Notes under the pieces: model-generated
The model's input: only the letters and a program-made list of their open reading frames with translations
Told to the model about the DNA's origin: nothing
Database searches by the model: none
Source: Piscinibacter sp.
GTDB taxonomy: Bacteria > Pseudomonadota > Gammaproteobacteria > Burkholderiales > Burkholderiaceae_C
Length of the DNA stretch: 64,000 nucleotides
Assembly: GCA_019635485.1 (NCBI GenBank)
Contig: JAHBZL010000017.1
Location: 36,743-100,742, forward strand
Direction of reading: 5' to 3'
Program-made: the position numbers and the translations under genes
In this document: piece after piece, positions 15,344-26,737 of the stretch
Numbering within the stretch: the first letter of the stretch is position 1
Layout of the letters: each line of letters begins with the position of its first letter

Positions 15344-16288
<945 letters not shown>

Positions 16289-16369
16289 CTATGCAGCCTT
16301 CGGTGCCTCTATGGGTCTTCTTGGAAGGTCCCTCGGGGCCTGACATGGGGTCCGCGCAGGCCCTTCTTC

Positions 16370-16384
16370 GCAACGCCCGTGCCA
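16370..16384 (-). promoter_or_regulatory. Sigma-54 (-24/-12) promoter of nifHDK
   Basis: On the minus strand TGGCACGGGCGTTGC matches the RpoN consensus (TGGCAC-N5-TTGC) at every fixed base. The predicted transcription start is near 16358, about 130 nt before the nifH ATG. Confidence 0.9.
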
Positions 16385-16400
16385 GGGTCCGTGACGAAGC

Positions 16401-16411
16401 TCAAGTACTTG
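16401..16411. promoter_or_regulatory. Candidate IHF site between NifA site and nifH promoter
   Basis: TCAAGTACTTG carries the TCAA-N4-TTG core of the IHF consensus and lies in the only AT-richer stretch between the upstream activator site and the -24/-12 element. It is also a palindrome (CAAGTACTTG), so another protein could use it. Confidence 0.4.
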
Positions 16412-16464
16412 TTTTCACGAGGCAAATCGTGCGTTTCCGGGGTCCGGACGGGGGCCTGTGCGAT

Positions 16465-16480
16465 TGTTCGAAACACGACA
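16465..16480. promoter_or_regulatory. NifA upstream activator sequence (TGT-N10-ACA)
   Basis: TGT-TCGAAACACG-ACA fits the NifA site exactly. It lies 80 bp from the nifH -24 element on one side and 76 bp from the -24 element of the divergent globin operon on the other, so a single NifA site may serve both. Confidence 0.75.
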
Positions 16481-16556
16481 AACCCGGGGGCCGCCGAACA
16501 GCACACGAGCGTCCACCGACACGGCTGCACCGGGCGTCGCGCGGTCCACACGCGCT

Positions 16557-16571
16557 TGGTACGGCGGTTGC
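16557..16571 (+). promoter_or_regulatory. Candidate sigma-54 promoter of the globin operon
   Basis: TGGTACGGCGGTTGC differs from the RpoN consensus by one base (T for C in TGGCAC) and has the exact GG-to-GC spacing. The predicted start is about 16583, one base before the globin ATG, implying an almost leaderless message. Confidence 0.6.
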
Positions 16572-16583
16572 TCTGAACGGCGC

Positions 16584-17000
16584 ATGAGCGCCCTGCCCGT
16601 CGTCACGACCGCCGCATCGAATCCGCATCTCGCGCGCCTCGGCGGCGAGCCGGCGGTCGTGCGCCTGGTTGATGCCTTCTATGCCGCGATGGACTCGCGC
16701 GCGGACGCCGCCGCGATCCGCGCGATGCATGCGGAAGACCTCGCGCCGACCAAGGCGGTGCTCGTCACCTACCTCGTCGAATGGCTGGGCGGCGCGAAGC
16801 AGTACACCGCCACGCGCGGCGCACCGCGGCTCGGCCGCGTGCATCGCCCGTTCGTGATCGATGCCGCCGCGCGCGACGCCTGGCTCGCCTGCATGCGCGA
16901 CGCGCTCGCCGTCACGTGCGAAGACAACGCGCTGCGCGACGAGTTGCTGGCCGCGTTCGCCAAGGTGGCGAACCACCTGACCACCCACCCGACCCCCTGA
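16584..17000 (+). CDS. Truncated haemoglobin (2/2 globin, group II type)
   Basis: 138 aa. The sequence opens with an AB-helix region and has the conserved Phe-Tyr pair (VDAFYAAM), a TYLVEWLGG segment, and the proximal region RLGRVHRPFVID with the haem-ligand His, as in TrHb2 proteins. Such globins bind O2 or NO. Its place opposite nifH, behind a sigma-54 element and near a NifA site, suggests O2 scavenging/delivery or NO protection for nitrogenase (inference). No ribosome site is visible before the ATG, in line with a leaderless start. Confidence 0.85.
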   Translation: MSALPVVTTAASNPHLARLGGEPAVVRLVDAFYAAMDSRADAAAIRAMHAEDLAPTKAVLVTYLVEWLGGAKQYTATRGAPRLGRVHRPFVIDAAARDAWLACMRDALAVTCEDNALRDELLAAFAKVANHLTTHPTP

Positions 17001-17018: not shown

Positions 17019-17627
17019 ATGAGCACGACCCTTGCCGCCCCCGGACTGAAGGACACCGCCTTCGCCCGCCTCGAATCCGAAGGCCGCCTGCTGAACCCCG
17101 TGCTGAAGGGCGCGACGAAGAAGCCCGGCCGCTTCGGCTTCCGCGGCGAACTGGCGCTGCGCTTCTCGGCCAAGCTGGCCGACGAGGCCCGCCCGCCCGA
17201 ACTGACCTGCGACCAGGTGATCGCGGTGGCCCAGGCCGGTGACGCCAGGCTGCCGTTCTTCGCCGGCTACCTGCTGAACTTCGCGCACCTGAAGGACGTG
17301 GCCGAAGTGCTCGGCGACACGCTGAGCGCCGGCGGCAAGTACTTCCTGTTCTGCAACAACATCGACCTGAGCAGGAAGTACCAGGTGCCGCTGAAGGGCG
17401 CGCTGTTCTACGTGCTGCCGATCGACGAGTCCACCGTCTACAACGAGCTGCTCGAGCTGCTCTACCTGGAGCGCAACGACCTGAAGAAGCTCGACACCGC
17501 CGGCAAGACCGACGCCGTCGCCGATGCGGCACTCAAGTACGACGTCACCTTCGACACCATCACCTACGAGGAAGGCCTCGCACTGATGGGCCCGGTGCGC
17601 AACCCGAACGAGAACAGGCCGGTCTGA
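17019..17627 (+). CDS. Unknown nif-associated protein
   Basis: 202 aa, family not recognised. Soluble, mixed alpha/beta composition, with a central segment GGKYFLFCNNIDLSRKYQVP and a C-terminal EEGLALMGPVRNP. No signal peptide, membrane segment or cysteine cluster. It has a CGGAG ribosome site and follows the globin gene by 18 bp and precedes the zinc-ribbon gene by 24 bp, so it belongs to the same presumed NifA-controlled operon. A role in nitrogenase protection or regulation is a guess from position only. Confidence 0.8.
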   Translation: MSTTLAAPGLKDTAFARLESEGRLLNPVLKGATKKPGRFGFRGELALRFSAKLADEARPPELTCDQVIAVAQAGDARLPFFAGYLLNFAHLKDVAEVLGDTLSAGGKYFLFCNNIDLSRKYQVPLKGALFYVLPIDESTVYNELLELLYLERNDLKKLDTAGKTDAVADAALKYDVTFDTITYEEGLALMGPVRNPNENRPV

Positions 17628-17651: not shown

Positions 17652-17885
17652 ATGCCGATCCACGACTTTCGCTGTCGTTCCTGCGGCCAGCAGTTCGAAC
17701 TGCTGGTGCGCGGCGACGGCCCGCACGCCTGCCCGCATTGCGCGGGCACGGCGCTCGACAAGCTTCTCTCGCGCATTGCGCCGCACGGCCACAGCCGCGA
17801 GATCGTCGCGGCCGGGCGCCGCGCCGCGGCGCGCGAGGGCCACTTCAGCCACTACAGCCGCGCCGATCGGGCGCGCGTCAAGTAG
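17652..17885 (+). CDS. FmdB-type zinc-ribbon protein
   Basis: 77 aa. The N terminus MPIHDFRCRSCGQQFELLV with a second CPHC pair (C8-x2-C11 and C27-x2-C30) is the FmdB/CxxC-CxxC regulatory-protein signature, expected to bind one zinc. The C-terminal half is basic and His/Arg-rich. Members are small putative regulators of unknown mechanism often found beside redox operons. It is last in the globin operon and converges on the ferredoxin gene 22 bp away. Confidence 0.85.
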   Translation: MPIHDFRCRSCGQQFELLVRGDGPHACPHCAGTALDKLLSRIAPHGHSREIVAAGRRAAAREGHFSHYSRADRARVK

Positions 17886-17907: not shown

Positions 17908-18213
17908 TCAGCCCGACAGCGCGCCCAGCAGCTCGACCGTCACGGCCTCGGTGCCGAGCACCGTCGCCTGGCACGCCAGGCGCGACTTGCTGCCGACGCC
18001 CACCAGCGTGTCGAGCTTGGCGTTCTCGGCCGGCGTGAGCTTGGACAGGCCCTTGCGGCCCTCGGTCACGAACAGGTGGCAGGCGCCGCACTTGGCGCCG
18101 CCGCCGCACTGGCTGACGAGCTTGCCGCCGGCCGCCAGGATGGCCTGCAGCAGGTTGGTGCCGGCCTCGACCTCGGCGCGCAGGCCTTCGGGCAGGATGG
18201 TGAGCGTGGTCAT
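17908..18213 (-). CDS. [2Fe-2S] ferredoxin, nif-associated
   Basis: 101 aa adrenodoxin-like ferredoxin. Ligands lie in SQCGGGAKCGACHLF (C-x5-C-x2-C) and a fourth Cys in SRLACQAT. It is the last gene of the long nifB-led leftward operon. Candidate electron donor for nitrogenase or for Fe-S/cofactor assembly (inference from position); ferredoxins of this kind occur in many nif clusters. Confidence 0.9.
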   Translation of the reverse strand: MTTLTILPEGLRAEVEAGTNLLQAILAAGGKLVSQCGGGAKCGACHLFVTEGRKGLSKLTPAENAKLDTLVGVGSKSRLACQATVLGTEAVTVELLGALSG

Positions 18214-18269
18214 GGGAATCTCTCCGTCGGTGATTGCGTCGGTGCGTCGCTGTTTGGGTGGGGTGGTGT

Positions 18270-19115
18270 TCAGGCCGCGGCCAGCGCCGGGCCGCACAGC
18301 GCGGCGGCGGCCTCGGCCAGCGGCAGTGCGATGCGCGTGATGCCCTGCTCGGCGAGGAAGCGTTCCTCCATGCGCGTCGGCGTCTCGGGCAGCACGGCGT
18401 AGTGCGGCCCGGCCGAGCGCTTCAGGATCTGGCGCGCGAACGCACGCGGCAGCTGGTCGTTGAAGCGGCAGCCGAGGAACACGAAGCCGAGCGTTGCGCG
18501 GCGCTGCTGCACGAGTGCGGGGATCGGCGTCTGGATGTCGATCTCGGTCAGCACCTCGACGAAGTCGCTGTCCGACACCAGGTAGTTGTGCGCCGGCGCG
18601 TGTCCGCCCCAGGGCTTGTAGAGCAGCGTGGCGGCCGCCAGCGGCTCGGCGCTCGGCCGGCCGGACGCGTCGTACCAGCCGCACCAGGTGCCGAAATGCT
18701 CGCTCTGGCTCAGGCCCTGCACCTCGGCCCAGTCGGAACGCGCGGCGGCCAGCGCCTGGCGCAGGGCGTCGTCGTACCAGGTGTCGACGATCAGCGGCAC
18801 CGGCAGGCTCGCGATCCAGCGCTGCAGCGCCGAGGGCGCCGGCGCGGTGGCGAATGCCTCGTCCATCGCCTTCGCCAGCGTCTGCCGGTGCTTGAAGTTC
18901 TCGATGAACTGCGCGGCCGCCGTCAGCCGGTGGCGGATCTTGCCGGGCACCGACACCTTCGCCGTCAGCACCGCGGCCAGCGCGGCGGGGTCGGCCGGCG
19001 GCGTCGCGCCCGGGCACAGGGCGAGCAGGCCCGGGCCCAGGTACGGCGCGAGCGCGCCGGTCTCGAGGCCGGCGGTGACACGCGCGGGCCATTCGGTGAG
19101 GGGGGTGACGTCCAT
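18270..19115 (-). CDS. SIR2-like domain protein in the nif operon
   Basis: 281 aa. The N-terminal LAPYLGPGLLALCPG (about 22-36) stands where SIR2-like folds have their GAG dinucleotide loop. The C-terminal half has LPVPLIVDTWYDDAL, HAPAHNYLVSDSDFVE and FVFLGCRFNDQLPRAFARQIL, a pattern typical of SIR2_2 proteins. This suggests an NAD(+)-binding or NAD(+)-cleaving fold, but catalytic residues cannot be confirmed by eye. It lies between the aminotransferase-like gene and the terminal ferredoxin. A link to NAD-dependent control of nitrogenase (as in DraT/DraG) is speculation. Confidence 0.65.
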   Translation of the reverse strand: MDVTPLTEWPARVTAGLETGALAPYLGPGLLALCPGATPPADPAALAAVLTAKVSVPGKIRHRLTAAAQFIENFKHRQTLAKAMDEAFATAPAPSALQRWIASLPVPLIVDTWYDDALRQALAAARSDWAEVQGLSQSEHFGTWCGWYDASGRPSAEPLAAATLLYKPWGGHAPAHNYLVSDSDFVEVLTEIDIQTPIPALVQQRRATLGFVFLGCRFNDQLPRAFARQILKRSAGPHYAVLPETPTRMEERFLAEQGITRIALPLAEAAAALCGPALAAA

Positions 19116-26661: not shown

Positions 26662-26677
26662 TGCGAGAGCCATGCCA
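26662..26677 (-). promoter_or_regulatory. Candidate sigma-54 promoter of the nifB operon
   Basis: TGGCATGGCTCTCGCA on the minus strand keeps the GG and GC dinucleotides at exact -24/-12 spacing, with two departures from consensus (T for C in TGGCAC, C for T in TTGC). The predicted start is near 26651, giving a leader of about 29 nt. Confidence 0.5.
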
Positions 26678-26721: not shown

Positions 26722-26737
26722 TGTGGCCTTCGCGACA
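26722..26737. promoter_or_regulatory. NifA site upstream of nifB (TGT-N10-ACA)
   Basis: TGT-GGCCTTCGCG-ACA fits the NifA consensus, centred about 79 bp upstream of the predicted nifB start, within the usual range. Confidence 0.6.

Follow-up and report, generated by a model that had tools for sequence, protein, structure and literature searches.

Where nifH and a globin gene stand back to back in a nitrogen fixation (nif) gene cluster, with sigma-54 promoters pointing outward from the gap between them and a NifA-type site in its middle, the question is whether that one site serves both operons. It arises here with a 64,000-nucleotide stretch of a Piscinibacter sp. contig, called the window below, to which coordinates refer unless a contig is named. 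A further question is set by the position of the globin start codon, which is so close to its promoter that the mRNA might have no leader at all.

Genes on the two sides of the gap

On the minus strand, nifH (15344..16228, start codon at 16228) is identified as the nitrogenase iron protein gene by TIGR01287, at 457 bits and over the cut-off, and by Pfam Fer4_NifH. Three genes on the plus strand lead away from it: one for a truncated haemoglobin of 138 aa (16584..17000), one for a 202-aa protein (17019..17627), and one for an FmdB-type zinc-ribbon protein of 77 aa (17652..17885; TIGR02605 at 52.7 bits and Pfam Zn_ribbon_8). Each of the last two has GGAG 6 nt 5′ of its ATG. The globin belongs to group II of the truncated haemoglobins, as judged from its match to Pfam Bac_globin (101 bits) and from the alignment with its PDB match 2xyk (E=1.5e-17), in which a His, a Tyr and a Trp are retained at what we take to be the places of the proximal His, Tyr B10 and Trp G8. 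The orthologue in a P. sprentiae record is named group II truncated hemoglobin. For its role, handling of O2 (or NO) in microaerobic N2 fixation would be the natural guess.

The 202-aa protein represents a conserved, nif-linked family without assigned function. Neither Pfam nor NCBIfam yielded a profile match to it at E 0.01, and comparison of its predicted structure (mean pLDDT 85) with the PDB by Foldseek gave no fold match with an E below 0.1. Shortly downstream, at 17908-19115 and still inside the nif cluster, a gene for a SIR2-like domain protein (Pfam SIR2_2) is beside one for a 2Fe-2S ferredoxin, a pair found again near nif genes in some relatives, e.g. L023 and L166.

Promoters and the NifA-type site

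The sigma-54 consensus TGGCACG-N4-TTGCW and the -24/-12 convention are used as given in PMC3538637. A motif search places TGGCACGGGCGTTGCG on the minus strand at 16369..16384 (-12 C at 16370), facing nifH. The original prediction had it as a full match, and that stands for TGGCACG-N4-TTGC but not for the 16-base consensus, the next base being G and not W, which makes one mismatch. By the -24/-12 convention the nifH transcript is predicted to start near 16358 and to have a leader of ~130 nt. Facing the globin operon on the plus strand is TGGTACGGCGGTTGCT (16557..16572, -12 C at 16571), with the GG-N10-GC core and the single mismatch, C to T, that had been foreseen for it; it is conserved in relatives, most of which read TGGTA(C/T)G. 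Between these two promoters there is, again as anticipated, just one perfect TGT-N10-ACA, TGTTCGAAACACGACA at 16465..16480, separated by 80 bp from the -24 element on the nifH side (16384 to 16465) and by 76 bp from that on the globin side (16480 to 16557), and so placed to serve both. An extra TGT-N10-ACA with one mismatch starts at 16535, near the globin promoter.

Taken alone, no significance can be attached to such matches, which occur at chance level in this GC-rich window: TGT-N10-ACA is found 4 times in it against 4.07 expected, and loose sigma-54 matches (at most 3 mismatches) 103 times against 126 expected, with 45 genome-wide matches at no more than one mismatch compared to 39 for a reversed control pattern. 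As the motifs are singly common by chance, the case rests on comparison, that is, on their combination and its conservation.

Conservation of the three-part arrangement

The 202-aa protein served to locate further copies of the gap. It is present in 23 of the 299 genomes searched from the window's family (the window's own genome included), in 44 of 399 sampled from the order and in 11 of 398 sampled from the phylum, the weaker matches being distant. A scan of named genomes yielded 196 relatives, and the 80 best of these were used, with distant relatives under-represented; among these 80 are Rubrivivax, Roseateles, Piscinibacter, Curvibacter, Rhodoferax and Hydrogenophaga as well as Pseudacidovorax, Acidovorax, Aquabacterium, Azohydromonas, Caldimonas and Paraburkholderia. 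Removal of 11 duplicates from 105 loci of the family search and the named-genome scan left 94 that are non-identical, 84 of them with nifH divergent from either the globin or the 202-aa gene in the stretch examined. Two of the 84, L056 and L081, were inspected separately and carry all the elements, and the other 82 were counted. The search of the gap DNA against plasmids gave no match.

The comparison of this gap in related genomes, put forward with the original prediction as a check, turned out in its favor. A nifH-facing sigma-54 promoter, a perfect TGT-N10-ACA and an opposite-facing sigma-54 promoter occur in that order in all 82 homologous gaps when up to 3 mismatches are allowed per promoter, and in 75 of the 82 when up to 2 are; dinucleotide shuffles of the same gaps yield the order in 2 of 8200 and 0 of 8200 cases, respectively. 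(The 82 include the window's own copy, and as loci related by descent they are not independent counts.) A single perfect site lies between the promoters in 74 of the loci; 7 have two such sites and 1 has three. In 80 of 82 the final bases of the site are GACA, and AAA comes next in most alignment rows. Its distance to the promoter is 78-136 bp on the nifH side and 8-223 bp on the side of the globin or 202-aa gene, and much of the sequence between the elements is unconserved while the elements themselves persist. A period of ~10.5 bp in the spacings (Rayleigh test) is not relied on as proof of helical phasing because the loci are related.

Ten of the 94 loci are without a divergent nifH in the stretch examined. 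In one, L015, the sequence ends inside the gap, yet all three elements are present; L032 and L033 are distant paralogues without a NifA-type site; L034 and L098 have too little upstream sequence; and in L110 unrelated-looking DNA, with neither promoter nor site, directly precedes the globin. The remaining four, L021, L075, L091 and L108, are more instructive. In these, nifH is absent from the 1.5-3 kb upstream of the 202-aa gene, and the sigma-54 promoter and the TGT-N10-ACA are nevertheless kept, the latter 92-102 bp before the -24 element. In L081, where the distance from nifH to the 202-aa gene is 2.4 kb, ~2 kb above the usual, each promoter has a site of its own. Retention of the site by separated loci, together with one site per promoter in L081, is as expected if the two promoters normally share one site.

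Several other features of individual gaps deserve mention. The L081 gap contains, between its two promoters, an open reading frame that is Crp/Fnr-like as judged by eye. What follows the sigma-54 promoter of L056 is a C-terminal globin remnant alone, which looks like globin loss with the promoter left in place. In L029 and L030 the NifA-type site is 8 bp from the -24 element on the globin side, which is very short for an enhancer. A further conserved element, TTTGTGTCG-NN-TTTG, is present in 28 of 82 loci (L011, L016 and L018 among them) and absent from the window; it sits ~40 bp (30-62 bp) before the -24 element on the globin/202-aa side, includes TGTCG, which resembles a NifA half-site, and may act as a second regulator site.

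Beyond the family the layout is patchy. At distant loci of the order and phylum with a tblastn match, a scan of 900 nt upstream of the 202-aa gene gave both a sigma-54 match facing that gene (at most 2 mismatches) and a TGT-N10-ACA in 14 of 37; the remaining loci are without one or both, in some instances because there is little sequence or because the gene is located elsewhere. The full layout, globin included, is seen in L116. L122 has no sigma-54 match facing the 202-aa gene at up to 2 mismatches, the globins of L121, L125 and L143 are not adjacent to a sigma-54 match, the arrangement at the globin is not clearly shown by L126, and in Methylococcus (L167) a response-regulator gene directly precedes the globin. 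Other families of the order (L122-L124 and L127-L129) also have nifH and the 202-aa gene back to back, but with two or three TGT-N10-ACA sites in the gap instead of one, the first two of them 29-30 bp apart.

An IHF-like site on one side

A candidate IHF site was expected on the nifH side only, and this is what is seen. Against WATCAANNNNTTR, which we take to be the IHF consensus, the best match in the window's gap on the nifH side is AAACAAGTACTTG (minus strand, 16402..16414), with 1 mismatch; on the globin side the best has 5. Among 80 of the 82 loci (two with a short arm were excluded), a match with no more than one mismatch occurs on the nifH side in 28 and on the opposite side in 3, where mononucleotide shuffles lead one to expect 2.5 and 1.05, respectively; 52 of the 80 are thus without one on the nifH side. 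For the core TCAAN4TTR the counts are 21 of 82 on the nifH side versus 1 of 82 on the other. As a feature of the sequence, the asymmetry is real and common to part of the family. The only match to IHF-alpha in the window's own genome, which is 84% complete, is below the family cut-off (60.7 versus 120.25 bits). Elsewhere in the window, nifB has a layout of its own, in which an IHF-like TCAAGTGATTGATT is situated between a sigma-54 match at 26662-26677 (-) and a TGT-N10-ACA at 26722-26737.

Predicted start of the globin mRNA

The globin ATG at 16584 begins 12 nt after the -12 C at 16571, and the predicted transcription start is at ~16583. (Data from C. jejuni have the recognition sequence 8-13 nt before the transcript start; PMC3847290.) This proximity is not peculiar to the window. 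A globin match is present at 47 loci, of which 46 were used for the spacing, the remnant in L056 being excluded, and in 44 of these 46 globin-first loci an ATG in frame with the globin is 12-14 nt after the -12 C. In L029 the ATG at the conserved spacing is absent and there is an in-frame GTG further down; in L087 the ATG is present but out of frame with the globin match. For L023, L028, L039 and L106 the in-frame ATG, at 12, 13, 13 and 12 nt, respectively, was read from the sequence, an upstream GTG also being present, and L028 has a second in-frame ATG at 7 nt. Outside the 46, the same spacing, read by eye, recurs in L116 (13 nt), in P. sprentiae L165 (12 nt), whose promoter matches exceed 2 mismatches, and in P. 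aromaticivorans L166 (12 nt). The cases of L121, L125, L126, L143 and L167 noted above count on the other side. At all 37 loci headed by the 202-aa gene, the distance from the -12 C to the start codon of that gene is 27-101 nt.

Mean pairwise identity of the globin promoter-to-ATG spacers is 38% (40 spacers, 35 distinct), and with identity so low and the ATG spacing fixed, length is what is kept. Other distances within the same loci vary widely. A Shine-Dalgarno match of at least 4 nt at a suitable distance precedes 5 of 41 globin starts compared to 78 of 83 starts of the 202-aa gene, the best match being 0-3 nt in the other 36 globin starts and 4-6 nt in those 78; the window's own globin is without one. 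(In L043, L059 and L071 the ATG was linked to the globin frame in the spacing analysis, not in the Shine-Dalgarno scoring, and L059, which is outside the 41 scored starts, carries AAGGA 4 nt ahead of its ATG.) At 12 of 41 loci the frame is interrupted by a stop codon between the -24 element and the ATG, which rules out a start codon further upstream there. In the window's family the globin mRNA is therefore predicted, from these features of sequence, to be probably leaderless or to have a leader of at most ~3 nt.

Two further lines were set aside. A C before the globin ATG was considered as a mark of the transcript start and rejected since the 202-aa gene has the same preference (C in 66 of 83), and internal globins of other families were rejected as a Shine-Dalgarno control, their start codons being uncertain. 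As a separate observation, 13 of the 37 globin-less loci (e.g. L016, L017, L042 and L088) still have an ATG or GTG 11-13 nt after the -12 C, and these may be remnants of a lost leaderless globin start.

Probable dependence on NifA

Published expression data are available for orthologues of the genes behind the globin. In P. phymatum STM815 the 202-aa gene is divergent from nifH at two places, and its two copies, Bphy_7752 and Bphy_7807, are 98.5% identical, the latter being 67% identical to the window protein; both are behind a sigma-54 promoter, TGGTACGGATGTTGCA. There is no globin at this place, the gap has one-mismatch sites only and no perfect TGT-N10-ACA, and the match of the nifH-side promoter is weak. 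By RNA-seq of nodules formed by a nifA mutant, transcripts of Bphy_7752 and Bphy_7807 are down by log2 values of -11.54 and -11.11 (PMC8305402, Table 1), the largest finite drops seen in the sorted table of 142 plasmid genes, in which NA is given for genes with zero reads in the mutant. In the same data the zinc-ribbon gene Bphy_7750 is at -7.72, nifH (Bphy_7753) at -7.40 and an ankyrin-repeat gene at -7.11. For P. phymatum it has in this way been shown in print that the orthologues of the 202-aa and zinc-ribbon genes depend on NifA. For the globin itself, the layout and a published statement on Herbaspirillum seropedicae SmR1, where a putative NifA-regulated promoter is reported for a globin-like gene in the nif cluster (PMC3093359), together suggest control by NifA. 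The authors of that work suggested oxygen delivery as the function of their globin. Azoarcus BH72 azo0536 was considered as an orthologue and rejected, as it lies downstream of draT (PMC8467165).

The necessary regulators are encoded by the window's own genome, with a NifA above the family cut-off at C9:5944-7602, on the same contig and ~29 kb before the window, and RpoN elsewhere. Layout, separated loci, the P. phymatum RNA-seq and the presence of both nifA and rpoN lend support, indirect for this organism, to the original prediction that the globin, the 202-aa protein and the zinc ribbon are expressed in dependence on N2 fixation from the enhancer of nifH.

A proposed two-way enhancer and its alternatives

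The explanation preferred here, in which we have considerable though not complete confidence, is that the gap houses a bidirectional NifA enhancer by which nifHDK and the globin, 202-aa and zinc-ribbon genes are co-activated, with the globin mRNA being leaderless. NifA bound at 16465-16480 would contact RNA polymerase-sigma-54 at the nifH promoter and also at the globin-operon promoter, with an IHF-type bend perhaps assisting on the nifH side. With NifA at one site reaching both promoters, nifHDK and the three divergent genes, presumably co-transcribed, would be switched on together during N2 fixation. The globin transcript would start at or within ~3 nt of the AUG and be translated as a leaderless mRNA, with ordinary Shine-Dalgarno sites being used by the two genes downstream.

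That the site instead serves nifH only, with the globin-side promoter being vestigial or under another enhancer-binding protein, seems improbable. Its attraction is that the distance from site to promoter is the tighter on the nifH side, that the IHF-like site is confined to that side, and that other activators exist, since 18 matches to the NifA profile were found in the window's own genome, one above the cut-off and many over the central part. A site needed by nifH alone is, though, hard to reconcile with its retention next to the outward promoter in the four loci that have no nifH nearby, with the provision of one for each promoter in L081, or with the strong NifA dependence of the P. phymatum orthologues (PMC8305402). 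The same expression data count against an even slighter prospect, inheritance of the layout without current function, which we regard as very improbable. All the loci do descend from related nif clusters, but mere inheritance does not sit well with elements that persist while much of the sequence between them is unconserved, or with an order seen in all 82 gaps but in 2 of 8200 shuffles.

More deserving of attention, though still unlikely, is an ordinary leader on the globin mRNA, either from an undetected upstream promoter or because the true start codon is elsewhere. In the window the globin frame runs on upstream without a stop, past the promoter, as far as a GTG at 16458, and some relatives (e.g. 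L010, L059 and L109) have a Shine-Dalgarno-like match of 4-5 nt just before the ATG. Such a match would, however, fall upstream of the expected transcription start; the in-frame stops in 12 of 41 loci are also against this alternative, as is an ATG that keeps its distance from the promoter while the sequence between the two varies. A leaderless start for the globin mRNA stays the preferred reading. As for its generality, we lean, with some reserve, toward there being a conserved class of leaderless mRNA from a sigma-54/NifA promoter, in which the globin AUG is kept by selection where transcription begins, without a Shine-Dalgarno sequence, while nifH and the 202-aa gene, under the same enhancer, have leaders.

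Relation to known systems

Divergent sigma-54 promoters with shared activator sites in a common upstream region are a feature of the nif regulon of Klebsiella, at nifF / nifLA. The genes are others there; here a single site is almost midway between nifH and a globin operon. A globin gene adjoining nifH also has a counterpart, the cyanoglobin gene glbN of Nostoc commune, which lies between nifU and nifH, is cyanobacterial and is not known to be under NifA/sigma-54.

Globin genes in nif clusters, and control of such genes by NifA, are already known. Both H. seropedicae SmR1 and Paraburkholderia xenovorans LB400 have globin-like genes inside the nif cluster (PMC3093359), as here, and L068, the LB400 chromosome 2 locus with its globin next to nifH, presumably holds the gene meant. 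A divergent nifH, a single shared site and the promoter-to-ATG distance are not described in the available part of that paper. The P. phymatum gaps Bphy_7752/nifH1 and Bphy_7807/nifH2 resemble that of the window in the divergence of the 202-aa gene from nifH, its sigma-54 promoter and strong NifA dependence (PMC8305402), and differ from it in lacking a globin, in having a NifA site with one mismatch and in the ankyrin-repeat gene that follows Bphy_7752. In the available text of PMC8305402 the two 202-aa genes are tabulated without comment.

Leaderless mRNAs of Campylobacter jejuni (PMC3847290) and Sinorhizobium meliloti (PMC3616915) have the AUG at the 5′ end and no Shine-Dalgarno sequence, just as predicted here. 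The C. jejuni set is reported to follow sigma-70 promoters and to be poorly conserved between species, whereas sigma-54 and family-wide conservation are predicted for the globin. In S. meliloti predicted sigma-54 promoters were assigned to start classes (PMC3616915), and single sigma-54 leaderless cases may exist there. In the open-licence literature, to the extent that it is available in full or in part, we found no description of one conserved NifA site acting both ways, on nifH and on a globin operon, nor, in a body of it comprising mostly titles and the starts of abstracts, one of a leaderless sigma-54 globin mRNA; no paper joining nifH, truncated hemoglobin, NifA and sigma-54 was found in it either.

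Implications

If the globin mRNA is leaderless, it would provide a simple and conserved system in which to test leaderless translation driven from a tightly inducible sigma-54 promoter and, if true, there would be a distinction at the level of translation inside one co-activated regulon. On the preferred reading, one enhancer ties an O2-binding globin and a conserved 202-aa protein to the expression of nitrogenase in many Burkholderiales, and by virtue of this tie both proteins are clear candidates for protecting or supplying nitrogenase.
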